DNA of 64,000 nt from assembly GCF_000526375.1 (NCBI RefSeq), contig NZ_JAFY01000002.1, positions 1 to 64,000 of the forward strand, written 5' to 3'. Shown one piece after another: positions 13,210-26,461 of the stretch (position 1 is its first letter; the number at the start of each line of letters is the position of its first letter). The stretch comes from Aminiphilus circumscriptus DSM 16581. GTDB taxonomy: Bacteria; Synergistota; Synergistia; Synergistales; Aminiphilaceae. A model generated the notes under the pieces. The model was given only the letters and a program-made list of their open reading frames with translations. It did not search any database and was not told the origin of the DNA. The position numbers and the translations under genes were made by a program.

Positions 13210-13806
13210 TCAGGAATACCCGAAAACGGCCCTGCCCATGACAGCCACAGTCGCTCCGGCCCGTTCCATCTCCTCCAGACAATCCCGACTCAGGTCGCCG
13301 TCGACCCAGATCTCTGCAGCGGGAAACAGACGCGTGCTCATTCGTACTTTGGCAATCATGACCGGGAGAAACTCTTGCCCCCGGCCATCAGGTTCCGCGG
13401 TGAGGACCAGGACACCATCGAGGCGATCCGCCAGGTACAGGAGGGGTTCCGGTGATGTTTTTGGGTTGAAGGCCAGTCCCGCTCGAAGCCCGGCTTTCCG
13501 GGCCAAGGCGAGAAAATCCGAGGGGTAGTCCAGGGCCTCCACGTGGGCAAAGACAATGGAAGCCCCCATCTCGGAGATGTCCTCCAGGTAGGTCGACGGC
13601 CGGTTTACCATGAGATGAAAAGAAAATGGAAGAGCCGTGACCCTCCGGAATGCTCGGACGGCCTTCATCCCGAAGGTGATATTCGGGATGAAGTTTCCGT
13701 CCTCAATATCGATGTGTAGATCCCGGTAACCTCCCTGCTCCACCGCACAGAGCGCCTCGCGCCAGCGCAGCGGATCGGCGGAGGCAATGGAGGGGGAAAT
13801 TCTCAT
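13210..13806 (-). CDS. Ribulose-phosphate 3-epimerase-like protein of a PTS operon
   Basis: The 198-residue TIM-barrel protein begins MRISPSIASADPLRW, the Rpe family opening. Metal-binding features are visible as HIDIEDG, FHLMVNRPS, HVEA and WVDGDLS. It is about 20 residues shorter than housekeeping Rpe and is the last gene of the PTS operon, the same place as SgcE/AlsE-type epimerases. A role on the phosphorylated sugar imported by the PTS is therefore inferred. Its ATG overlaps the IIA stop by 4 bp. Confidence 0.8.
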   Translation of the reverse strand: MRISPSIASADPLRWREALCAVEQGGYRDLHIDIEDGNFIPNITFGMKAVRAFRRVTALPFSFHLMVNRPSTYLEDISEMGASIVFAHVEALDYPSDFLALARKAGLRAGLAFNPKTSPEPLLYLADRLDGVLVLTAEPDGRGQEFLPVMIAKVRMSTRLFPAAEIWVDGDLSRDCLEEMERAGATVAVMGRAVFGYS

Positions 13807-14303
13807 CGCCCGGTCTCTCTTTCCTCCAAGGCGGCAGGAGGAAAGAGCAGAAGGCGCAACGCCTCTCCCTCCGTCTCGACGTTTCCGAGACGCTCCAGCA
13901 GCGTCGGATTCTGCAGGAGTTCTACCAGTTCTCGGATCAACCCTACCTGCTTCTCTCTTTCCCTGATCGCCAAGAGGAAGACGATCTTTGCCGTGACCGT
14001 GCTGGATCCGTCTGTTCCCATCAGTCCGAAAGCCGCGGGCGACGCAAGGATACCGACAGCGATTCCCGAGGCGGAGACCCGGTCCGGATCGGCATGAGGA
14101 ATCGCCGTTCCCAGAGGTAGCGTGGGCAATCCGGTGGGATAGATCTTCTCCCTCGCAACGGCGTCATCCGCGTACCCCGGCTCCGCGAACCCCTTTTCGA
14201 CCAAGCGAGACGCGAGAGCACGAATGACCGTCTCCGCATCGGAGGCCTCCACGTGAACCGCGATGAGATCTTCCCTCAGAAGGTCGGCAAGCGAGCGCTG
14301 CAT
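13803..14303 (-). CDS. PTS EIIA component (fructose/galactitol type)
   Basis: The 166-residue cytoplasmic domain belongs to the mannitol/fructose EIIA fold (PTS_EIIA_2). The phosphorylated histidine lies in TAIPHADPDRV (His71), and the LPLGTAIPHA context is typical. It passes phosphate from HPr to the IIB cysteine. The 3' end overlaps the epimerase start, and IIC lies 19 bp upstream. Confidence 0.88.
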   Translation of the reverse strand: MQRSLADLLREDLIAVHVEASDAETVIRALASRLVEKGFAEPGYADDAVAREKIYPTGLPTLPLGTAIPHADPDRVSASGIAVGILASPAAFGLMGTDGSSTVTAKIVFLLAIREREKQVGLIRELVELLQNPTLLERLGNVETEGEALRLLLFPPAALEERETGR

Positions 14304-14322
14304 CAGACACGCATCCCTCCGC

Positions 14323-15603
14323 TCACGCGCCGAAGAGAAGCTGGGTGATCTTCATCATGATCCAGGCAATCCAGTTTCCGTTGGAAAGCCCGGAGATCAT
14401 CGTCGCTCCCTCGGGAATGGCGTAGACACCGCTCGACCGGGCGATATCGGTGATGACCGGCGCAAAAGAGCCGGCGAGATAGAGAATCATCGCCATGATG
14501 ATCGTGCCGTAGAGAATCGTGCGGAAAAGATTCCCTCTCGTCATGGGCGGAACCATGCAGACAAAGAACGCAGTGGCCGCCAAGTCCGCGAAGGGCAATA
14601 CCCGGTTGCCCGGAAGAACGAAGGCGAGAAGAAGCGTGATCGGAATCAGAACAATGGCTGCCGCGATGGTGATGGGGTGTCCTATGAGAATGGCCGAATC
14701 GAGACCGATGTAGAAATCGCGCCCCTTGAAGTGCTTCTGCATGAACTGTCTCCCCGCCTCAGAGAGAGGAGTCAACCCTTCCATAAAAATTGCGATGATG
14801 CGCGGAACCAGCAGCATGACCGCCGCCATCTGAACCGCCAGGAGAAAGGTATTTTTCGCGAAACCATAGGCGAAGAAGCCCAGGAACAATCCCAGGACCG
14901 CTCCCATCGTGACGGGCTGTCCGAGAACGCCCAACTTCTCCCGGATAGTCTTTTCGTCCCAGTTTATGTTCCTCAGACCGGGAATGCGCTCCATGATCCA
15001 GTCGAGAACGGCAATGATCGGGACGCTGGTGACGCACCACCCTTGGGGAATGGAGATGTTCGGCAGGTGAAAGAATTCCTGCACTCTCTTCGCCGTATAA
15101 TCCCCGATGAGCAAGGCAATCACGCAGTGTGCTCCTCCAGCCGCGAGGCCCAGGATCAGCCCCTTGCCGCCGCCACCCGAGACTAAATAGACCACCGATC
15201 CGGTGAACGCGAAATGCCAAAAATTCCACATGTCCACATTGAGAGTTTTCGTGGTTTTCGTGAGGAGCATTACGATGTTGATGCCGAAAGCCAGTGGAAT
15301 GATGAGGGCACCGATGGTAGTGCTGAACGCGATTGCAGCACCCACTCCCCACCCGACGTCGACCGCTTCGAGCTTGACGTCGGTAGCGGCAATAAGGGCC
15401 TTGGTCGCAGGATCCAGGGCGCCCAGCAACAGACCGATCACCAAGTTCAGTCCGACGAATCCAACACCCACCGTAATTGCCGAAGTGAGGGCCCTTCCCG
15501 GCTTCTGCCCCAGGATCAAGCCCAGGCAAAAAACCACGATTGGAAGCATGATGGTGGGACCCAATCCCGTCATGAAATCACTGATCGTCTTGATGCTTTC
15601 CAT
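14323..15603 (-). CDS. PTS EIIC permease, galactitol (GatC/SgcC) family
   Basis: The 426-residue integral membrane protein has about ten or more hydrophobic segments. Features of the galactitol EIIC family include VGWGVGAAIAFSTTIGALII, GLILGLAAGGAHC and GLDSAILIGHPITIAAAIVL. It forms the translocation channel and works with the separate IIB and IIA proteins in the same operon. The substrate could be galactitol or another polyol/sugar; sequence alone does not decide. No sugar-phosphate dehydrogenase or tagatose enzyme is in the operon. Confidence 0.9.
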   Translation of the reverse strand: MESIKTISDFMTGLGPTIMLPIVVFCLGLILGQKPGRALTSAITVGVGFVGLNLVIGLLLGALDPATKALIAATDVKLEAVDVGWGVGAAIAFSTTIGALIIPLAFGINIVMLLTKTTKTLNVDMWNFWHFAFTGSVVYLVSGGGGKGLILGLAAGGAHCVIALLIGDYTAKRVQEFFHLPNISIPQGWCVTSVPIIAVLDWIMERIPGLRNINWDEKTIREKLGVLGQPVTMGAVLGLFLGFFAYGFAKNTFLLAVQMAAVMLLVPRIIAIFMEGLTPLSEAGRQFMQKHFKGRDFYIGLDSAILIGHPITIAAAIVLIPITLLLAFVLPGNRVLPFADLAATAFFVCMVPPMTRGNLFRTILYGTIIMAMILYLAGSFAPVITDIARSSGVYAIPEGATMISGLSNGNWIAWIMMKITQLLFGA

Positions 15604-15624
15604 CTCTTACCCCACTCCTTTCGA

Positions 15625-15942
15625 TTACGTGGCAGACATGTTTTCGTCGAGTTTGGCGGCGATTTCGTCCACGAGCTCCTCCATGCCGATTCCCGTCAGG
15701 AAAGCAATAGCGCTGGTGAATACAGGGACGGAAAGCTCATAAGGGACCTGAGCCGTCGAGACGACCGCGTCGGCATCTTCCGCATAGGCTGGTATTTCCG
15801 GAACGCGGCACTGCACGATCTCGACACGGTCCTTTCCACGCTCGGCAAGCATTTCCTTCAGCTTAAGAGCGACATGCGTCGATGTGGCAATACCGGTTCC
15901 ACAAGCTACAACGATCCGATACGTTCTTTTCACCGCATCCAT
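15625..15942 (-). CDS. PTS EIIB component (galactitol type)
   Basis: This 105-residue protein carries the phospho-cysteine loop VVACGTGIATSTH near its N-terminus and ends with a GMEELVDEI helix, as in GatB/SgcB. I start it at ATG 15942 (MDAVKRTYRIVVACG), which has a GGTGGAGTGTCC ribosome site. The open frame back to 16077 has no family similarity. It lies between the regulator and IIC. Confidence 0.9.
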   Translation of the reverse strand: MDAVKRTYRIVVACGTGIATSTHVALKLKEMLAERGKDRVEIVQCRVPEIPAYAEDADAVVSTAQVPYELSVPVFTSAIAFLTGIGMEELVDEIAAKLDENMSAT

Positions 15943-16114
15943 GGACACTCCACCTTTCCCGAGAGAATCAAGGGTGAACGCGTCGAAAACGACACATTCC
16001 TCCGCCAGCGACTCGGACGTTCCATGGCGCCACCGCCAATCCGCAACCCGCTTCTCCCAACGCATTGAGTCATCCACCGTGTTTGATCCGCCCCCTTTCG
16101 CTCACCCGCACGTC

Positions 16115-16903
16115 TCAGGCGAGCGTGACCGCCACGCCATTCCTGCGGAGAGCATCTAGAGCTGCAGGGTCGGCTCCCCTATCGGTAACGATCCGCGTGA
16201 TGCGTTCCATACCGCAGATTTCCACCAGGGCCGTCTTTCCGAACTTGGAACGGTCCGCGACGACGATCACTTCACACGCCGATTCGATGAGGAGCTGCTT
16301 GACGGCCGCTTCTTCGAAGTTCGCATTGAAGATTCCCCGGTCCGGGTCAATGGCGTCCGCCCCGAGGAAAGCCTTATTCACCCGCACGCGGCGGAAGAAA
16401 CGTTCCGTCTCGCTCCCGAGAGTCAAACCGAACCCCCGACGAACCCTGCCCCCCGCCAGAAGAACCGAACTCGTCGGGTTGTAGTCCACCGTTCCGGCAA
16501 TCAGAAGATCGTACGTCATGACCGTCAAGTGCCTGAGATTGATCAGCCTCCTGGCGACTTCCAGCGTCGTCGAACCCGCATCCAGAGCGATGGCCTCTCC
16601 ATCCGCCGCCAGCGCGGCTGCAACGGCGCCGATACGACATTTTTCCTCCAGGTTCTTGAACTGTTTTTCCGCATAACTGTCCTCGAAAGCCGTACTGGTC
16701 CCGGGAGAGACAGCGCCGCCATGGGTCCGGCTCACCAGCCCCTTGGCGCTGAGTGCTTCGAGATCCCGCCGAACCGTGGCCTCGGAAACTCCGAGATGAC
16801 TGACCAGACCCTCCACCGTCACCCCGCCACCGGAGCGAATTGCTTCCAGAATTCTTCTCTGGCGCTCCGCCGGAAGAATCGAAGGATGAGCCTGCCTCTG
16901 CAT
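16115..16903 (-). CDS. DeoR-family transcriptional repressor of the PTS operon
   Basis: This 262-residue protein has an N-terminal DeoR winged helix (ERQRRILEAIRSGG, VSEATVRRDLEALSAKGLV, RTHGGA). A C-terminal DeoR sensor fold follows (ALDAGSTTLEVARRL, LTVMTYDLL, FLGADAIDPDRGIFN). ATG 16903 is chosen for its GGGGAGGAACGGAAT ribosome site; an in-frame ATG at 16924 and an open frame to 17014 exist. It is the first gene of the operon, and its promoter overlaps a 14-bp inverted repeat, so autorepression and sugar-phosphate induction are inferred. Confidence 0.9.
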   Translation of the reverse strand: MQRQAHPSILPAERQRRILEAIRSGGGVTVEGLVSHLGVSEATVRRDLEALSAKGLVSRTHGGAVSPGTSTAFEDSYAEKQFKNLEEKCRIGAVAAALAADGEAIALDAGSTTLEVARRLINLRHLTVMTYDLLIAGTVDYNPTSSVLLAGGRVRRGFGLTLGSETERFFRRVRVNKAFLGADAIDPDRGIFNANFEEAAVKQLLIESACEVIVVADRSKFGKTALVEICGMERITRIVTDRGADPAALDALRRNGVAVTLA

Positions 16904-16985
16904 ATTCCGTTCCTCCCCGTACATGGGATGAAGAACCGCTGGTCCCGCAGCGCATCGCACAGCGATTCTCGATTCATTAGACACC

Positions 16986-17046
16986 AGTGTACGGGAGGCA
17001 CACAAAGAAATCAATATCGATCATTTTTTTTGATTGATATTGATCA
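16986..17046 (-). promoter_or_regulatory. Promoter and operator of the deoR-PTS operon
   Basis: On the minus strand a -35 TTGATT (17009-17014) and a -10 TACACT (16986-16991) are separated by exactly 17 bp. Two arms, ATCAATATCGATCA (17010-17023) and the inverted ATCAATATCAATCA (17031-17044), are separated by seven T. The near arm covers the -35 box, which is the expected place for a DeoR-type repressor. Confidence 0.75.
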
Positions 17047-17298: not shown

Positions 17299-17398
17299 GG
17301 AAGCTCTGAAGAAAGACCTTTCGCTTTTCCTTGACTCGGGTCGCGTCAGGCTCTGCGAGGCGCCCTGCGAGGCTGACGTAGCCTTATTCAGAGATTCC
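17299..17398 (-). repeat. MITE-like inverted-repeat element, copy C
   Basis: This is a 100-bp copy in the opposite orientation to A and B. It is flanked on both sides by ATAG (17295-17298 and 17399-17402), which looks like a 4-bp target duplication. It has inserted at the 3' end of the transporter pseudogene, and its bases TGGAATCTCTGA supply that reading frame's last codons and stop. Confidence 0.85.
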
Positions 17399-18243
17399 AT
17401 AGGGCGAGGCTTGAGAGAAGCGCCGCAAGCACGCCGCAGGCGAGCTTGAAGGCGCTGTCATAGAGCAGCGGCGCCAGAAACCCCGAGACGACGGCGAGGA
17501 TGAGGGTCTGGACGAAGGCCTGCAGCGAAGCCGCCAAGCCCCGGCTTTCTGGAAAGAGTGCAAGGGCCGTGACGGTGATCCCCGGCGCAGCGATGTTCAT
17601 GCCGAAGGCGTAGAGCATGAGGGGCAGGACCGCCCAGGGGAGTGCGGGGGCAAACAGGGCGGTGTAGGCCACGTTGCACAGCGCCGCCACCCCCATGACG
17701 CCGAAGCCGATCCGGATGATGGCCCCGGTGGAAAAAGCGGCGCGTCAGCCGCGCCGAGGTGGCGGCCCCCGTGACCATGCCGGCCACGAGGGGAACGAAG
17801 AGCCAGCCGAATCCGGTCTCGGGCTGGTGGAGGATGTTGATGACGAAACTGGCCGCCGAGCCGATGTAGAGCCCGAATCCGATGAAGAAGGTTCCCATGG
17901 ACAGGATCAGCCGGAGAAAGCGCATGTTCCGGACGACCTTTCCGTAGTCGGCGAGGATGCCCGCGGGTCGGAAGCGGTGGCGCATCCCCCGGGGAAGGCT
18001 CTCCGGAAGCAGACGGAAGAACGCGACGCTCATGAGCAGGGCAAAGGCCGCGAGGAAGAGAAAGACCGATCTCCAGCCGAAAAGCACGTGCAGCCATCCG
18101 CCGAGAATGGGGGCGATAGCGGGAGCGAGGCCGAAAACCATGGTGATGTAGGACATCACCCGGTGCGCCTCTGCACCCGAGGCGAGATCCTGCACGACCG
18201 CCCTTCCCACCACGGCTCCGCCCGCCGCCGCAAGATCTTGCAC
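17388..18243 (-). pseudogene. Broken MFS transporter gene (Bcr/CflA-like)
   Basis: The frame starting at 18243 reads GRAVVQDLASGAEAHRVMSY and GLAPAIAPILGGWLHVLFGW, the region from transmembrane helix 4 of Bcr/CflA-type exporters. About the first 100 residues are absent. Near 17732-17736 a run of five T (minus strand) breaks the frame; with four T the protein continues as STGAIIRIGFGVMGVAALCN. The C-terminus is cut by MITE copy C. A sequencing error could explain the T run but not the missing N-terminus. It lies directly downstream of trpB. Confidence 0.8.
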
Positions 18244-18254
18244 TCCTCGACGCG

Positions 18255-18345
18255 GCGTGCCCTGCACCGCGGCGCAGGGCACGCTTCCACGACGGCGCGA
18301 CCGTCGCGAGGGCGGCGTTCCGCCGCAGCCTTACGCGGCGGAACG
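18255..18345 (-). terminator. Two strong hairpins after trpB
   Basis: Two 11-bp perfect stems lie just after the trpB stop: GCGTGCCCTGC / GCAGGGCACGC (18255-18284) and CGTTCCGCCGC / GCGGCGGAACG (18316-18345). Neither has a T tract. They may slow or end trpB transcription or protect its 3' end. They occupy the place where the missing N-terminus of the transporter gene would be. Confidence 0.5.
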
Positions 18346-18354
18346 ACACGAAAC

Positions 18355-19587
18355 CTACAACCCGAGCAGCGGCAGGAGCGTGTCCAGGTCCTTGTCACCC
18401 CTGCCGGAGAGGTTCACCAGGAGGATCTGTTCCTTCTCCATCGAGGGAAGCCTCTTCAGCGCGTAGGCGAGCGCATGGGAACTCTCGATGGCGGGAATGA
18501 TGCCCTCTTCCCGACAGAGGCGCCCGAAGGCGGTGATGGCCTCCTCGTCGGTGACGGCCACATACTGCACCCTCCCGGTATCTTTGAGATAGGCGTGCTC
18601 TGGGCCGACGCCAGGATAATCGAGCCCCGGAGCAATGGAATAGACCGGAGCGGGCTCGCCCGCGTCGTCGGCGAGCACATAGGTGTTGAAGCCGTGGACG
18701 ACGCCGGGAGAACCCGCTACGAGAGTGGCCGCGTGGGCGCCGAGGCCGAGGTGCAGCCCCTTGCCCGCGGGCTCCACGCCCGTGATGGCCACCTGCGGGT
18801 CCGCAAGAAATCCGGAGAAGATGCCGATGGCGTTGCTGCCGCCGCCGACACAGGCCACCACTTCGTCGGGAAGCCGTCCCTCCCGCTGGAGCATCTGCGT
18901 CCGGGCCTCGCTGCCGATGACGCTCTGAAAGAAGCGGACGATTTCGGGATAGGGAGAGGGGCCGACGGCGGAACCGAGGAGATAGAACGCCTCGGGATCC
19001 TCCATCCACGCCGCGAGCGCGCCGTCCACCGCCTCTTTGAGCGTGGCCTGACCGAAGGAGACGGGGACCACCGTTGCGCCGAGGGCACGCATGCGCCCCA
19101 CGTTGGGAGCCTGACGCGCCACGTCCACCGCGCCCATGTAGACAACGCACTCCATGCCGAGCAGCGCCGCCGCGGTGGCGCTGGCCGTTCCGTGCATTCC
19201 CGCGCCGGTCTCGGCGATGAGGCGCTTCTTTCCCATGCGCTTCGCCAAAAGCCCCTGTCCGAGAGCGTTGTTGATCTTGTGCGCCCCCGTGTGGTTCAGG
19301 TCCTCCCGCTTCAGAAAGAGCCGCCCGCCGCCGCACGCCCTGGAGAGGTTCCGGCACTCCGTCACGGGGGAAGGTCTGCCCACGAACTCCACCAGCACTT
19401 CGTCCAGCTCCTTCCGGAACGTCGGATCCGCCACGGCCTCGTCGAAGGCCTTCTCCAGCTCTTCCAAAAGCACCGCGATCCCCTCGGGAACGAATCTGCC
19501 GCCGTAAGGGCCGAAATAGCCCCGCTTCGTCCGCGCCGCACCCTGTTCGTTCAAAACCGCCGTTCCGCCTTTGCTCATCTCTGCCAT
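18355..19587 (-). CDS. trpB: Tryptophan synthase beta chain
   Basis: The 410-residue protein is a TrpB1-type enzyme that joins indole and serine using pyridoxal phosphate. It has the [13 protein letters not shown] start, the Schiff-base Lys104 in [23 protein letters not shown] and the phosphate loop [10 protein letters not shown]. Relative to many TrpB proteins the sequence around [10 protein letters not shown] has Met where Gln is common. There is no trpA or other trp gene nearby. ATG 19587 has a GAGGAGGCGAGGAAC ribosome site. A Trp-codon leader peptide and terminator lie upstream, so control by attenuation is likely. Confidence 0.95.
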
Positions 19588-19816
19588 GTTCCTCGCCTCC
19601 TCTGGTTTCTTTCGATGTCCCTCCGCTGCGCTGCGTTTTTCTTCCCCTTCTCACCGCTCCTCTTCTTTCCCCTTCCCTTCTCCACTCCTCGCCTTTTCTC
19701 TGCTCTCTTCCTTCTTCTCCATGCCCCTTTCTTCCGGGCGCTCTTTTCCGTTCGCTCCGCGTTCTCCCGCTTGCGTTCGCGTCGTCCGCGCCCGCCGCTT
19801 CGCGACGGACCGACAT

Positions 19817-19895
19817 ACAAAAAGGGCCGTCGTCGCGACGGCCCCGAAAAGGACAACGCAGGGGGCCGCGGGAATGCGCCTGTCCCGCGGCCCCC
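19817..19895 (-). terminator. trpB attenuator: competing hairpin and intrinsic terminator
   Basis: Downstream of the leader peptide, on the minus strand, a 13-bp stem (GGGGGCCGCGGGA / TCCCGCGGCCCCC, 19861-19895) is followed by a perfect 9-bp terminator stem GGGCCGTCG / CGACGGCCC with a CGA loop and five T (19820-19844). The stretch GTCCCGC just after the leader stop (19918-19924) can pair with GCGGGAC in the first stem (19882-19888), and 19875-19885 can pair with 19851-19860. Alternative folds are thus possible, as attenuation needs; which fold antiterminates was not computed. Confidence 0.8.
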
Positions 19896-19925
19896 CTTGA
19901 AAAACAGGTCAAAGGCGGCGGGACC

Positions 19926-19976
19926 CTAAGGCCACCACCACCAGAAATGCGTCAGACGAAAACCGTTCCTGGACAC
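19926..19976 (-). CDS. trpL: trp leader peptide with four consecutive Trp codons
   Basis: A 16-codon ORF ends RLTHFWWWWP then TAG; its four TGG codons are adjacent (19929-19940). The GTG start at 19976 has AGAAGGG upstream. An in-frame ATG at 19994 would make 22 residues but falls almost at the predicted transcription start, so GTG is preferred. Leader peptides rich in the regulated amino acid let ribosome stalling report charged tRNA-Trp. It lies between a good promoter and a terminator 340 bp upstream of trpB. Confidence 0.85.
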   Translation of the reverse strand: MSRNGFRLTHFWWWWP

Positions 19977-20001
19977 TGCACCCTTCTGCGTCATGGACGG
20001 G

Positions 20002-20031
20002 ACCATACCACGGAAACCGCGCCTCTGTCAA
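20002..20031 (-). promoter_or_regulatory. Promoter of the trpL-trpB unit
   Basis: Minus-strand TTGACA (20026-20031), an 18-bp spacer and TATGGT (20002-20007) predict a start near 19995, just before the leader peptide. The -35 is a perfect consensus. Confidence 0.75.
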
Positions 20032-20547: not shown

Positions 20548-21324
20548 ATGAAACCGCCCACGAGCATCGAAAAAGCGGCCTCCGTCCTGGACAGACTGGC
20601 CGAACCGCCCTACACCATGTCCCTCACGGAGGTGGCGGATTTTCTCTCCATGAGCAAGCCCGGTGCGCTGAGCATGCTCGACGCCATGGAACAGTGCGGG
20701 TTCGTCTTCCGCGATTCCCTGACAAAGCGTTACACCCTCGGGGCCTCTCTCGTCCGGCTCGGCAAGGCCTTTCTGGAGCAATCCGATCTGGAGGACACGG
20801 TCATGCCCCATCTGGTCCGCCTCAAGGAGACGACGCCCGGAGGAAGGGGACACACCTATCTGAGCATCTGGGACGGGCGGAAGTGTTTTCTGCTCCTCTC
20901 CGTGGATTTTCTCCACGACCGGCGGACCTACGGTCCCTACGAGGGAGGCGGAATTCCACTCCACGCGGGACTCACGGCGATCCTCCTGGCGGCCTACCAG
21001 GACCAGGCGACGATCCGGCGCATGCTGGAGGCGGCGGTCCCGCTGAAGAAAGTGACGGAGAACACCCTCACGGACATCGATCAGATCATGGAGCACTATC
21101 GCAGAGTCCGCGAACAGGGGTACCACCTGGGCAACGAAGGATACCGCATCGGTTTCGTGGGCATCGCCGCACCGGTGTTCGACAAGGACGGCAGAGCCTT
21201 CGCCGCGGTGGCCCTCTCCTGTCCCAAGACACTGCTCTCCCGGGAGGCGCTTGTGGAGAGCTACCTGGACGGCGTGCTCGAAACGGCCCGGGTCATCACC
21301 CGAAAGATCGCCCTTCGGGGGTGA
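20548..21324 (+). CDS. IclR-family transcriptional regulator
   Basis: The 258-residue protein has an N-terminal winged helix (SIEKAASVLDRLAE, SLTEVADFLSMSKPGALSML) and an IclR effector domain (PLHAGLTAILLAAYQ, GYHLGNEGYRIGFVGIAAPV, AFAAVALSCPK). The start has a GGAGGAACTCCGCAC ribosome site. It heads a plus-strand run of peptide-use genes and probably regulates them; the ligand is unknown. Confidence 0.9.
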   Translation: MKPPTSIEKAASVLDRLAEPPYTMSLTEVADFLSMSKPGALSMLDAMEQCGFVFRDSLTKRYTLGASLVRLGKAFLEQSDLEDTVMPHLVRLKETTPGGRGHTYLSIWDGRKCFLLLSVDFLHDRRTYGPYEGGGIPLHAGLTAILLAAYQDQATIRRMLEAAVPLKKVTENTLTDIDQIMEHYRRVREQGYHLGNEGYRIGFVGIAAPVFDKDGRAFAAVALSCPKTLLSREALVESYLDGVLETARVITRKIALRG

Positions 21325-21455
21325 TTCCGCCCGAAGCCGCCACCGCCGCAGGTTCCGAAGCGATGGCACGGCGCCGGACGGGATGTCCTGTCCGTTCGGC
21401 GAGCGGACAAAAACGACGGCGCAAAGGGGCGCCGCAGGAGGAGCAGGAGAACGAA

Positions 21456-22745
21456 ATGGAAGGTGAAACGATCATGCGCGGAGAAACCGCTCCCGGGAAG
21501 GACGTCTCCGCCGGGAAGTTCTTTTCGGAAAAACGCTTCATCGAAGACTACGTCCGCCGCAACCGGGAGAACATGCTCGACTTCTGGGAAGCACTGGTGA
21601 ACAGAGAAAGCTTCTCCGGGGACAAACCTTCGGTGGACGCCCTGGCGGCGTGGCTCGCCGAACGCTTCGACGAGATCGGAGGAACCTGCGAACTTCTGCG
21701 CTTTGCCAAGGCCGGGAATGGCCTCGCCGTCACGCTGAACGGAAACGCGCCCGGCAGGCCGGTCCTTCTGCTCGGCCATTACGACACGGTCTTTCCCCCG
21801 CTCGCGGAAGAGCGGCGGACGTTCCGTATTGAGGATGGGCGTGCCTACGGCCCGGGGGTCCTGGACATGAAGGGGGGCATCACCATCGCCTTTCACGCCG
21901 TCCGGGCCCTTCTCGAAGGGGGGTTCAGGGAGCGCCCGATCCGGGTTCTCCTCGCGGGAGACGAGGAGACCGGGCACCCCGAGTCCGACATGGGGGAGCG
22001 TTTCCGCGCCGCCGCCGCGGAATGCGTCGCGGCCTTCAACCTGGAGACGGGCGCTCTCGACGACGGGGTCATCGTGGAACGCAAGGGCATGAGCCGTTAC
22101 CTTCTCGACGTGCGGGGCAGAGCGGCCCACGCGGGGCGCGACCTCGAAGAGGGGCGGAGCGCCGTGCTCGAGGCGGCGCACAAGACCGTCGCCATCTCCG
22201 CCGCGTCGGGAGAGGACATGGGCTTCAACGTGGGTGTCTTCCGGGGAGGCACCGTGGCAAACGTCGTGGCGGACAGGGCGGAGCTGCACATCGACGTGCG
22301 CACCCGCACCACCGGCGCCGCCGCCCGGGCGGAAGCGCTGCTCCGGGACGTGGCCCGCCGCAGCACCGTGGAGGGTACGGAGGCGAACCTGTCAGGGGGA
22401 ATGTTTTTCCCTCCCATGGAACGCACCCCGGGCAACCTGGCGCTCTTCGAACATCTCCGGTGGGTGGCGGACTCTTTCGACCTGCCTCCGGTGCACCCCG
22501 CCGCCTCGGGGGGGAGTTCCGATTCGGCCTTCACCGTCGCGGCGGGAACCCCCACGGCGGATCAACTCGGCGTCAAAGGCAGGCACAACCATTCCCCCAT
22601 GGAGTGGGCTGACGTGGCCTCGCTCTTTGAGCGCACACGCTTTCTCTTTTGCGCCGTCGCCACCCTGGGGAACTTCGAGAAAACGTGGACGGCAGCGGAA
22701 CGAAAGGATTCCCACGGGAAGAACCACGAGAAGGGGGGTGTCTGA
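21456..22745 (+). CDS. M20-family metallopeptidase (carboxypeptidase G2-like)
   Basis: This 429-residue zinc hydrolase has the M20 signature: GHYDTVF (His, Asp), GPGVLDMKGG (bridging Asp), DEETGHPES (general base Glu and ligand Glu), HAGRD in the lid domain and GRHNHSPMEW (last His ligand). It resembles glutamate carboxypeptidases and probably splits peptides or N-acyl amino acids in the cytoplasm. ATG 21456 follows GGAGGAGCAGGAG; ATG 21474 is a second choice. It lies between the IclR gene and the transporter operon. Confidence 0.9.
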   Translation: MEGETIMRGETAPGKDVSAGKFFSEKRFIEDYVRRNRENMLDFWEALVNRESFSGDKPSVDALAAWLAERFDEIGGTCELLRFAKAGNGLAVTLNGNAPGRPVLLLGHYDTVFPPLAEERRTFRIEDGRAYGPGVLDMKGGITIAFHAVRALLEGGFRERPIRVLLAGDEETGHPESDMGERFRAAAAECVAAFNLETGALDDGVIVERKGMSRYLLDVRGRAAHAGRDLEEGRSAVLEAAHKTVAISAASGEDMGFNVGVFRGGTVANVVADRAELHIDVRTRTTGAAARAEALLRDVARRSTVEGTEANLSGGMFFPPMERTPGNLALFEHLRWVADSFDLPPVHPAASGGSSDSAFTVAAGTPTADQLGVKGRHNHSPMEWADVASLFERTRFLFCAVATLGNFEKTWTAAERKDSHGKNHEKGGV

Positions 22746-22877
22746 AGACAGAGGCGGAGAGGACACATCCCTTTCGTGTCGGCGCGACAGGGAGCGGACG
22801 CGGCACGCAGCCTCCGGCACGGGTTCACCCGCGTCCTTCGGTGGTTCCACGGCCCCATTTGGAGAGGAGTGAAGGAA

Positions 22878-24416
22878 ATGAAAAGGAAAATCGCTCGTGT
22901 GTGTCTCGGCCTCCTGTTGACACTGAGCCTCGTCGTTCCCGCGATGGCCCGGGAGCTGGTCATCGTGGCGGCGGAGGAGATCGAGAACACGGACATCCAG
23001 CAGTGCACCACCAGCTTCGCGACGCACGACTTCCTCTACGCCCCCATGCTCGTTCTCGACAGCGACATGACTCTGCAGAAGGGATACGTGTCGGACTGGA
23101 AGGTCTCCGAGGATGGAATGGTCATCACCATGACCATTCCGGAGGGACTGAAATTCTCCAACGGCGACCCCGTCACGGCGGAGGCGGTGATGCGCTCCTT
23201 CGTGCGCTACGCGGAGACATCCTCCTTCGGGGCGGATTTCAAGAAGGACTGCAGCTTCAGCGTGAACGGCAACGACTTCATCATGACCTGGACGGACTCC
23301 CCCGCCGCGAACTTCGTGGACATGGCAAGCGCCTTCACGGGCCTGGTGGACGTGGCCGCCGCGGAACGCACGGACAAGGACGAATTCGCCCGCAAGGCCG
23401 TGACGTTCGGCCTCTTCGCGGTGGACGAGTGGGTCCAGGGATCGCACATCATCCTCAAACGCAATCCGTACCACCGGACGAACATTCCCTTCGTGGAGAA
23501 CAAAGGCATCGCCCTCGTGGAATCCGTACGAGTGCGCTTCGTCCCCAGCGGCTTCACCCGCGTGTCGGAAATCCAGGCGGGCAAGGCGGACATCGCCTTC
23601 AACATCCCCATCGAGAACGTGGACGAACTGGAGAAGAACGACAACGTCGAGATGATCCGCTATCTCCTCGCGGGAGGGAGCATGTACTACCTGAACGACA
23701 AGGTTCCCGGCCTGAATGATCCCGCAGTGCGCCAGGCGATCATCCGGGGCATCGACAAGGAGGAACTCGTGGCGGTTCTGGACGACAAGGCCCAGGCCCG
23801 GTACGGTTTCATGCCCCCCACCATGTCGGGCTACAGCGAGGCCGCGGAGGAAGCGTTCTCCCGGGACTTCGGCTACGACATGGAAAAGGCGAAGGGGCTT
23901 CTTGAGACCGCGGGGTGGAAGGCCGGCAAGGACGGCATCCGCGAGAAGGACGGCGTGCGGCTGAGCTTCACCATGATGGTTCCTCTGGACATTCCCGAGA
24001 TGGCCTCCACGGCGCCGCTGATCCAGGCCCAGCTCAAGAAGCTCGGCATCGCTGTGGAGATCCGGGAGTTCGAGCACAACTACGTGAAGAACCAGACGCG
24101 CAAGGGCGAGTACGAGATCGCCGGACGACGCTACAACTGGCCCGACGGCAGCATGGTGAACTACCTTTTCGAATCGACCTACAAGTACACGAGCGACCCC
24201 GAGGTGGACGAGGTGCTCAAGGTCGCCGTGAACGAGACGAACCCGGCGAAGCGCATGGAGCTCTACGCAAAGGGGCAGCGCCTGGTGCTGGAGAAGGGGC
24301 TCGGCGTTCCACTCCTCACGCCCTTCCGCTACCTGGCGTTCAGCAAGCAGATCAAGGGATACAAGATGACGGGGAACACGATCCTTCTGCTCAACGACGT
24401 GGAATTCGTGAAATAG
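22878..24416 (+). CDS. Peptide ABC transporter substrate-binding protein
   Basis: This 512-residue family 5 solute-binding protein starts with a clear signal peptide (MKRKIARVCLGLLLTLSLVV then AMA) at ATG 22878, with ribosome site GGAGAGGAGTGAAGGAA. Family features include LKFSNGDPVTAEAV, DPAVRQAIIRGIDKEEL and YDMEKAKGLLETAGWK. It captures di- or oligopeptides in the periplasm for the permease and ATPase genes that follow. The specific ligand cannot be read from sequence. Confidence 0.93.
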   Translation: MKRKIARVCLGLLLTLSLVVPAMARELVIVAAEEIENTDIQQCTTSFATHDFLYAPMLVLDSDMTLQKGYVSDWKVSEDGMVITMTIPEGLKFSNGDPVTAEAVMRSFVRYAETSSFGADFKKDCSFSVNGNDFIMTWTDSPAANFVDMASAFTGLVDVAAAERTDKDEFARKAVTFGLFAVDEWVQGSHIILKRNPYHRTNIPFVENKGIALVESVRVRFVPSGFTRVSEIQAGKADIAFNIPIENVDELEKNDNVEMIRYLLAGGSMYYLNDKVPGLNDPAVRQAIIRGIDKEELVAVLDDKAQARYGFMPPTMSGYSEAAEEAFSRDFGYDMEKAKGLLETAGWKAGKDGIREKDGVRLSFTMMVPLDIPEMASTAPLIQAQLKKLGIAVEIREFEHNYVKNQTRKGEYEIAGRRYNWPDGSMVNYLFESTYKYTSDPEVDEVLKVAVNETNPAKRMELYAKGQRLVLEKGLGVPLLTPFRYLAFSKQIKGYKMTGNTILLLNDVEFVK

Positions 24417-24671
24417 ACTACCCGCCTTCGGAACGCGCCGGAGATGGACGGAGAAAGCCCTTCCGCCGCCCGCGCGTTCCGCACCGAAGCATTTTTCGCG
24501 GCAGCGTCATCTCCGTCGCTTGTCACGGGACTTTTTCCCGTCACGGCGGCGGGCTCCTGCGGGGCTCTCTTTCGGAAATGTCCCGGCGGGCATCCGTCCG
24601 TGAAGAAGCCCTCCGGTAACGACGCGGCGGACAAAGAAGGCGGAACAAGAGCGACGGAAGGAGGATCTCCG

Positions 24672-25619
24672 TTGGGTGATTTTCTCGCGTTCACGGCAAA
24701 ACGTCTCTTCCAGGGAGCACTCGTGGTGCTCACGGTCTCCTTCGTGCTCTTCTCCATCATGCACATGATGCCCGGAGACCCCATCCAGCTCATCGACAAT
24801 CCAAGGGCATCGGAGGAGACCATCGAGCGCCTCCGCAAAGAATGGGGACTCGACAAACCCTTCCTGGTGCAGTACGGCTACTGGCTCGGCAACGTCCTCC
24901 GGGGCGATCTGGGAAGATCCATCACCACGGGGCAGTCCGTGACGTCCCTCATCGCGGGGCGCTTTCCCTTCACGCTCAAGCTCACCCTCACGGCACTGCT
25001 GCTGCAGTATCTCGTCGCCACGCCCCTCGGACTCTGGGCGGCCTACAAGCGGGACTCCTGGTTCGACAAGTGCTGCGTGGTGGTCACATCGGTCCTCCGG
25101 GCCATTCCCTTCTTCTGGCTGGGCATCCTGCTCATTCTCGTCTTCAGTGTCCACTTCGGCCTTCTTCCCGTCTCGGGGGCTTCAGGGCCGGCATCCTACA
25201 TCCTGCCCGTGCTGACCCTCATGCTCCCCCGTCTGGCGGAGACACTGCGCATCACCCGCTCGGAGGTGCTGGAGATTCTCCGGGAAAAGCACGTGGCCAC
25301 GGCCTACGCCAAGGGACTGAGCGAGCGGGCCGTCATGATCCGCCACGTGCTGCGCAACGCCCTCGTGCCCGTGACAGTCATGTTCTTTCTCGCCGTTCCC
25401 TGGCTCATCGGGGGCTCCATCATCACCGAAACCATCTTCGCCTGGCCGGGCATGGGGCGTCTGCTCTGGAAATCCGTGTCGGTGCAGGACTTCCCGGTCG
25501 TGCAGGGCATCGTGCTCCTCATCGCCATCCTCACCGTGGTGAGCACCACTCTGGGGGACCTCCTCACGGGGCTGCTGGACCCGCGCATTCGGGTGGAACT
25601 GAGGAGGGAACAGGCATGA
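24672..25619 (+). CDS. Dipeptide ABC transporter permease (DppB-like)
   Basis: This 315-residue membrane protein has six hydrophobic segments and the binding-protein-dependent permease loop EILREKHVATAYAKGLSER (EAA motif). MHMMPGDPI and DKPFLVQYGYWLGNVLRGDLG are typical of DppB. I choose TTG 24672 because AAGGAGG is 8 bp upstream and the length then matches the family; the frame is open back to 24444. The stop overlaps the next ATG. Confidence 0.92.
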   Translation: MGDFLAFTAKRLFQGALVVLTVSFVLFSIMHMMPGDPIQLIDNPRASEETIERLRKEWGLDKPFLVQYGYWLGNVLRGDLGRSITTGQSVTSLIAGRFPFTLKLTLTALLLQYLVATPLGLWAAYKRDSWFDKCCVVVTSVLRAIPFFWLGILLILVFSVHFGLLPVSGASGPASYILPVLTLMLPRLAETLRITRSEVLEILREKHVATAYAKGLSERAVMIRHVLRNALVPVTVMFFLAVPWLIGGSIITETIFAWPGMGRLLWKSVSVQDFPVVQGIVLLIAILTVVSTTLGDLLTGLLDPRIRVELRREQA

Positions 25620-26461
25620 AGACGGAAGCGTTCCGCACCCACCTGGGCGAGGCCTGCCGCAACAGAACCTTTCTCGCGGGGTTTCTCATTCTGGCGAGCG
25701 TGGTGGTGGTGGCCCTCTTCGCCGAACGCATCGCACTCCGCCCCTACGACGAAATCAGCGTGCGGGAGAAGCTGCAACCCCCCTCGGCGTCCCACTTCTT
25801 CGGCACGGACCATCTCGGGCGGGATCTCTTCTCCCGGGTGATCCACGGCTCCCGGATCACGCTGAAGATCGGCGTCATCGCCGTGACCATCCAGGTGCTT
25901 TTGGGCGTCACCCTGGGACTTCTCGCCGGTTTCTACGGCGGCTGGCAGGACAAGGTGATCCTCTTCTTCACCGACGCCACCTGGGCACTGCCGCCGACGA
26001 TCCTCGCCATCGCCATCTGTGCCGCCCTCGGCCCGGGGCTGACGAACGTGATCATCGCCGTGGCGCTCGTCTCTTGGGCGCGGTTCACTCGCGTCATCCG
26101 CGCCAAGACCCAGAGCATCAAGAATCTTCCCTTCATCGAGTCGGCCCGGGCCTTCGGCGAGAACGACGCGGCGCTCCTCTTCCGCTACATTTTCCCCAAC
26201 GTGGTTCCCGTGACCATCGTGCTGGCAACCCTTTCCCTCCCCGCCACGATCATCACCACCACGGCCCTGGGCTTCCTCGGCCTCGGCGCGCAGCCGCCCT
26301 CGCCGGACTGGGGCGTGATCCTCTCGGACGGCATGACCTACATGACCCGCGCCCCCTGGCTGAGCGTCTTTCCGGGGTTGGCCATCATCTACGTGGTGCT
26401 CGGCTTCAACCTCATCGGCGAGGGACTCCGGGATCTCCTCGATCCCCGGCTGAAGATCTGA
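25616..26461 (+). CDS. Dipeptide ABC transporter permease (DppC-like)
   Basis: This 281-residue partner permease shows the DppC features FGTDHLGRDLFSRVIHGSR and the coupling loop ESARAFGENDAALLFRYIFP. It has about six membrane segments and ends LIGEGLRDLLDPRLKI, the standard C-terminus. Its ATG overlaps the dppB stop (ATGA), so translation is coupled. Confidence 0.94.
   Translation: MKTEAFRTHLGEACRNRTFLAGFLILASVVVVALFAERIALRPYDEISVREKLQPPSASHFFGTDHLGRDLFSRVIHGSRITLKIGVIAVTIQVLLGVTLGLLAGFYGGWQDKVILFFTDATWALPPTILAIAICAALGPGLTNVIIAVALVSWARFTRVIRAKTQSIKNLPFIESARAFGENDAALLFRYIFPNVVPVTIVLATLSLPATIITTTALGFLGLGAQPPSPDWGVILSDGMTYMTRAPWLSVFPGLAIIYVVLGFNLIGEGLRDLLDPRLKI

Follow-up and report, generated by a model that had tools for sequence, protein, structure and literature searches.

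The window analysed here is a stretch of 64,000 nucleotides of Aminiphilus circumscriptus DSM 16581 (contig NZ_JAFY01000002.1), a member of the Synergistota, and its minus strand carries a trpB gene behind a short open reading frame with four adjacent Trp codons. An initial annotation took this arrangement for a Trp-codon attenuator in front of a lone trpB and considered its use on an isolated trpB unusual. The locus raises the questions of whether the leader is such an attenuator, how a ribosome stalled within it could reach the gene downstream and what a stand-alone TrpB would contribute to the cell. Ribosome-mediated attenuation is a textbook mechanism that is documented mainly in Proteobacteria and Actinobacteria. 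In the literature searched, which left most subscription papers outside its scope, we found no Trp attenuator of the Synergistota. We propose, with a probability of roughly 0.9, that the predicted leader attenuates transcription by a ribosome-mediated mechanism, responds to charged tRNA-Trp and turns on the stand-alone trpB in tryptophan starvation. The mechanism is a known one; the phylum, the gene and the layout with tandem terminators are new.

Organization of the trpB leader

A promoter, an open reading frame with four Trp codons, a hairpin, an intrinsic terminator and trpB follow one another on the minus strand, each at the position given in the initial annotation. The features used throughout the text are, in order of transcription and with coordinates of the window:

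20002–20031, minus strand: putative sigma-70-type promoter, TTGACA-18-TATGGT (consensus scan, 10/12 matches), with TTGACA at 20031–20026, TATGGT at 20007–20002 and a spacer of 18 nt
19926–19994, minus strand: leader peptide ORF of 22 codons, MTQKGAVSRNGFRLTHFWWWWP and stop (translation; position and Trp codons conserved in relatives)
19932–19943, minus strand: four tandem Trp codons TGG (segment 1), the proposed sensing site (read directly; kept in orthologous leaders)
19914–19942, minus strand: anti-antiterminator hairpin 1:2, Trp codons paired with CCGCCGCC, -19.9 kcal/mol (fold; cognate pairing in relatives)
19882–19924, minus strand: antiterminator hairpin 2:3, -23.5 kcal/mol (fold with a ribosome on Trp codons 1–3; cognate-versus-swapped test)
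19860–19896, minus strand: hairpin 3:4 (T1), 14 bp, -32.5 kcal/mol (fold; consensus and covariation)
19838–19869, minus strand: candidate 4:5 pairing of 19869–19862 with 19845–19838, 8 bp, -15.7 kcal/mol (complementarity; fold)
19818–19845, minus strand: intrinsic terminator 5:6 (T2), a 10-bp hairpin at 19845–19823 followed by the U-tract TTTTGT
19588–19822, minus strand: purine-rich spacer to trpB, about 230 nt, longer than in most relatives
18355–19587, minus strand: the regulated gene, a trpB paralogue of 410 aa (TIGR00263, above cut-off)

The 185-nt leader folds at -92.1 kcal/mol, compared with -74.7 ± 4.6 kcal/mol for dinucleotide shuffles (z = -3.8). Only 7 nt separate the -10 box from the leader ATG, so that the transcript probably begins at or beside the start codon and the leader peptide is probably translated leaderless. 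The leader mRNA of Sinorhizobium meliloti trpL likewise begins at the ATG (PMC7298713), although the target there is trpE(G), whereas the leaderless spacing proposed here is read from promoter positions and is seen in 17 of 39 related leaders, where the ATG lies 6–7 nt past the best -10 match. Most of the other leaders have a 5' UTR, several of them with a Shine-Dalgarno-like sequence. The Shine-Dalgarno sequence of trpB itself, AGAGGAGG, lies at 19603–19596 (minus strand) within the purine-rich spacer. The spacer was also considered as a genomic repeat, which was rejected on its single occurrence in the genome.

Conservation of the leader in the Synergistota

We compared the locus with 188 Synergistota genomes, 119 of which have a trpB match at an E-value of 1e-60 or better. 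The initial annotation had proposed looking in relatives for short ORFs with tandem Trp codons upstream of trpB, and such an ORF, with at least two adjacent Trp codons, precedes all 49 stand-alone trpB loci examined. Within the phylum the arrangement is therefore normal and no local exception, and the absence of conservation in relatives that the initial annotation had named as a refutation did not materialize. At least three Trp codons in a row are present at 38 of these loci and at least two adjacent ones at the remaining 11; one leader of a stand-alone trpB reads WWRW. Among 2040 random 500-nt windows from related genomes, 34 (1.7%) contain three consecutive Trp codons and a stop within 12 codons, and the Trp-codon pattern was found upstream of none of 80 trpB loci that were taken from a general genome collection and belong almost entirely to other phyla. 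The leaders are mostly 17–24 codons long, and the peptide sequence that precedes the Trp codons is poorly conserved among them. In consequence, hitherto unannotated leader peptides are predicted in dozens of genomes.

The terminators are conserved as well. Two tandem hairpins with T-rich tails were called in 39 of 40 leaders and recognized by eye in the fortieth, and five leaders of family f8 apparently have a single terminator. Some stand-alone-trpB leaders (L142, L143, L145, L146 and L148) have two Trp codons only and apparently one terminator, and are perhaps a simpler form. No gene neighbours of the stand-alone trpB were found to be conserved beyond close relatives, and hence it behaves as a single-gene unit.

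Alternative helices and the proposed mechanism

How the position of a ribosome would affect the window leader was examined by stepwise folding in which the ribosome footprint was excluded from pairing, the comparison of folds with and without a ribosome that the initial annotation had called for. With the A site on Trp codons 1–3 and RNA polymerase just past segment 3, hairpin 2:3 forms at -23.5 kcal/mol; it weakens to -17.1 kcal/mol with the ribosome at the fourth Trp codon, is absent with the ribosome at the leader stop codon and is replaced by 1:2 when there is no ribosome. Full-length folds give 3:4 together with 5:6, and the antiterminator states are less stable than this combination at equilibrium, so that the switch must be kinetic, like known attenuators.

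Pairing across relatives was assessed by comparing each leader's own arms with arms swapped between genera in 23 leaders. Cognate arms of 2:3 pair at -18.66 kcal/mol and swapped arms at -16.70 kcal/mol (p = 0.0004, with shared ancestry only partly corrected for), and the pairings 2:5 (p = 0.86) and 2:6 (p = 0.30), taken as negative controls, give no such signal. These results support a mutually exclusive antiterminator 2:3 whose pairing is conserved across relatives.

We propose that, when tryptophan is present, the ribosome would reach the leader stop codon and mask segment 2, upon which 3:4 and terminator 5:6 would form and transcription would end; in the absence of a ribosome, 1:2 would have the same effect as a masked segment 2. 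A ribosome stalled on the Trp codons would instead leave segment 2 to pair with segment 3. Segment 4 would then be free and could pair with segment 5, and formation of 4:5 would disarm terminator 5:6 and allow trpB to be transcribed.

Possible coupling of the two terminators

T1 is a U-tailed terminator in most relatives. In the window its U-tract is eroded and the remaining tail, GCGTTGTCCTTTT, is poor, so that only the second terminator, 5:6, looks functional there, and a stalled ribosome needs a further step to act on it. The candidate for this step is 4:5, a pairing that is possible in every leader tested. In the swap test on the same 23 leaders the core arms of 4:5 give p = 0.0085, yet the control 3:6 gives p = 0.017, because T1 and T2 resemble each other, and the 4:5 signal is inseparable from this likeness; with extended arms 4:5 looked significant, but with core arms it does not go beyond the 3:6 control.

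The main alternative is a classical four-segment attenuator, in which 3:4 alone matters and 5:6 is an independent back-up terminator without any 4:5 coupling. The U-tract that T1 has in most relatives agrees with such a scheme, as do the apparently single terminator of the five f8 leaders and the fact that the 4:5 covariation cannot be told apart from terminator similarity. It fits the window poorly, however, where T1 is almost without a U-tract and only 5:6 could terminate, so that a stall could reach 5:6 only through a link of the 4:5 type. Moreover, in L081 and L147, the two leaders whose T1 has the poorest tail, 4:5 reaches -18.6 and -27.4 kcal/mol, values that are among the most favourable of the leaders tested. 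On balance we regard the four-segment scheme as rather unlikely and the 4:5 step in the window leader as likely but unproven. The two-terminator design is in any case testable.

The stand-alone TrpB and the trp operon

The statement that this trpB is alone, with no other trp gene, holds for its surroundings; it does not hold for the genome (3.22 Mb), which has a complete trpEGDCFBA operon on the same contig, about 0.63 Mb away (L121:10879–18479, contig 2 at about 643.9–651.5 kb). The operon has a Trp leader of its own, ending in LLRNWWWRA before the stop and followed by tandem hairpins, and its trpB is 63% identical to that of the window. Against TIGR00263 the window TrpB reaches 565.7 bits (cut-off 392.45), which makes it a TrpB1-type enzyme, and keeps the catalytic residues K87, E109, D305 and S377. 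Stand-alone TrpBs form a single clade (48 of 49 rows, support 99/93; the exception is in genome G036) apart from the operon TrpBs. Two genomes have a further arrangement: in the trp operon of G024 (L155) trpA is flanked by a trpB copy on either side, and G025 has two trpB matches at a similar spacing.

At least 14 genomes of 93–100% completeness (G013, G026, G029, G030, G031, G035, G044, G109, G129, G132, G166, G169, G173 and G187) keep a stand-alone trpB, with neither trpA nor trpC detected. Since trpB is kept there without either gene, the only reasonable route in these genomes is from indole plus serine. The use of free indole by TrpB has been documented elsewhere (PMC11085991), and the window TrpB would most likely also make tryptophan from indole and serine without a TrpA partner of its own. 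A set of six residues has been published for stand-alone TrpB (PMC11917138). This set, defined on LBCA (E36, E42, T53, S187, A279 and M280, LBCA numbering), is mostly absent from the window TrpB: in our alignment E36, E42 and T53 are replaced by T, D and S, and A279 and M280 by F and N, the mapping of S187 being uncertain. TrpA independence therefore draws no support from these residues, and indole use stays a prediction. We also considered Met114 of the substrate loop as a stand-alone signature and dropped it, as Pseudomonas TrpBs and some of the operon copies in Synergistota have it too.

The window TrpB might instead be a dosage copy that works with the TrpA of the operon. The trpA gene of the trp operon and the fact that most of the six published residues are missing are what such a copy would lead one to expect; the retention of the orthologue in the near-complete genomes that lack trpA and trpC, and the separate clade of the stand-alone TrpBs, argue against it. 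We consider a dosage copy unlikely and favour indole salvage. The orphan trpB clade thereby gains a functional reading, as an enzyme that would be expressed when tRNA-Trp is uncharged and would probably recapture indole. The indole-salvaging or stand-alone TrpBs of Thermococcus (TrpB1/TrpB2), Bifidobacterium and Pelodictyon use free indole (PMC11085991, PMC11917138), as is predicted for the window enzyme, but the latter differs from them in being of TrpB1 type, in falling into a separate Synergistota clade and in mostly lacking the published residues.

A wider family of tryptophan leaders

A covariance model (R1) trained only on 22 leaders of stand-alone trpB genes finds 14 further stand-alone leaders that had been held out, together with 15 of the 18 leaders of trp operons, all at the expected positions. 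In the genome of A. circumscriptus its top two matches are the leaders of the stand-alone trpB (4.6e-20) and of the trp operon (3.9e-4), and all others have E-values of 0.1 or more. Together with the conserved leader, the cognate-specific arms of 2:3 and the conserved terminators, this recovery of held-out leaders supports the attenuation first suggested for the locus. Across the phylum R1 has matches in 82 of 188 genomes. Away from the units already described, some precede trpE. Others precede genes for TrpP and for a TrpB2-type enzyme, both above the cut-offs of their models (PF17099 and TIGR01415, respectively), for a sodium symporter of the SNF family (PF00209), for an ABC binding protein that is TrpX-like (best match TrpX, below the TrpX cut-off), and for PaaK-like ligases and a few others. 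On sequence grounds these matches would amount to a tryptophan regulon. The predicted switch of the window is accordingly a member of a Trp-switch family that recurs through the Synergistota, and the logic of attenuation would recur there as Trp control on several separate transcription units. The most comprehensive proposal is that a phylum-wide Trp regulon of trp operon, stand-alone indole-salvage trpB, trpB2 and Trp importers is governed by one attenuator family, in which a single ribosome stall would disarm both terminators of a tandem by way of five alternative helices linked in a chain; we advance it tentatively, at somewhat less than even odds.

Several further leaders deserve mention. 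Those before the PaaK-like ligases, an ECF/IorAB-like cluster, TIGR04076-type proteins and an amidohydrolase (L236, L223, L231, L237, L226 and L228) have a candidate link to Trp only. Trp leaders of family f8 (L225, L229, L232, L233 and L235) precede TrpP-like transporter genes, and several of the genomes concerned have no trpB or trpA match. The weak R1 matches L238 and L240 look like chance and were set aside.

Comparison with known regulatory systems

The window as a whole has no match to any Rfam family, and Trp_leader is absent from the leader even up to E = 5. Like the E. coli trpL (Rfam Trp_leader), the window leader has a short peptide with adjacent Trp codons, a set of helices (1:2, 2:3 and terminator) that exclude one another and a Trp-related target; unlike it, it has two tandem terminators and a stand-alone trpB as its target, and belongs to a different phylum. 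The attenuator of the enteric his operon has six segments, A–F, and its D:E helix blocks the last terminator. It resembles the window leader in its chain of alternative helices, D:E corresponding to the candidate 4:5, and differs from it in that the codons here are for Trp rather than His and that, in most relatives, the middle hairpin 3:4 carries a U-tail and is a terminator in its own right. Among the Actinobacteria, Trp attenuators are known for the trp operons of Corynebacterium and Streptomyces and for trpS2; in C. diphtheriae they were predicted on trpB1EDGC and trpB2A, so that there, too, more than one trp unit would be attenuated, and a second trpB heads one of these units (PMC1262725). 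That second trpB is joined to trpA, whereas here it is alone, in some genomes without any trpA.

The leader might mainly yield a trans-acting small RNA or peptide, as reported for rnTrpL/peTrpL of S. meliloti, a function compatible with attenuation in cis. The terminated RNA would be roughly 175 nt long and probably leaderless, as in S. meliloti (PMC7298713). We judge such a main function very improbable, given that the peptide ahead of the Trp codons varies and that what is conserved in the leader is what attenuation in cis requires.

The tnaC system depends on one critical Trp, on arrest by the nascent chain and on Rho. A similar Trp-activated arrest switch, in which tryptophan would induce rather than repress the gene, could point to the Trp codons common to both leaders and to a tryptophanase/tyrosine phenol-lyase family gene in the genome, but 2–4 adjacent Trp codons, variable peptides, conserved intrinsic terminators, 1:2/2:3 alternatives and targets mainly in synthesis and uptake make it the least probable reading of all.

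Genomic neighbourhood

The broken exporter noted beside trpB in the initial annotation is indeed a remnant: directly downstream, at 17388–18282 (minus strand), lies a Bcr/CflA-type MFS exporter whose open part starts from about profile position 100 and whose C-terminal part is in another frame. PTS genes (IIA-like, galactitol-type IIC and IIB) and a DeoR/GlpR-type regulator occupy 13803–17014 (minus strand). On the other side, at 20548–26461 (plus strand), an IclR-type regulator precedes a putative peptidase and an ABC transporter of the oligopeptide/nickel type.
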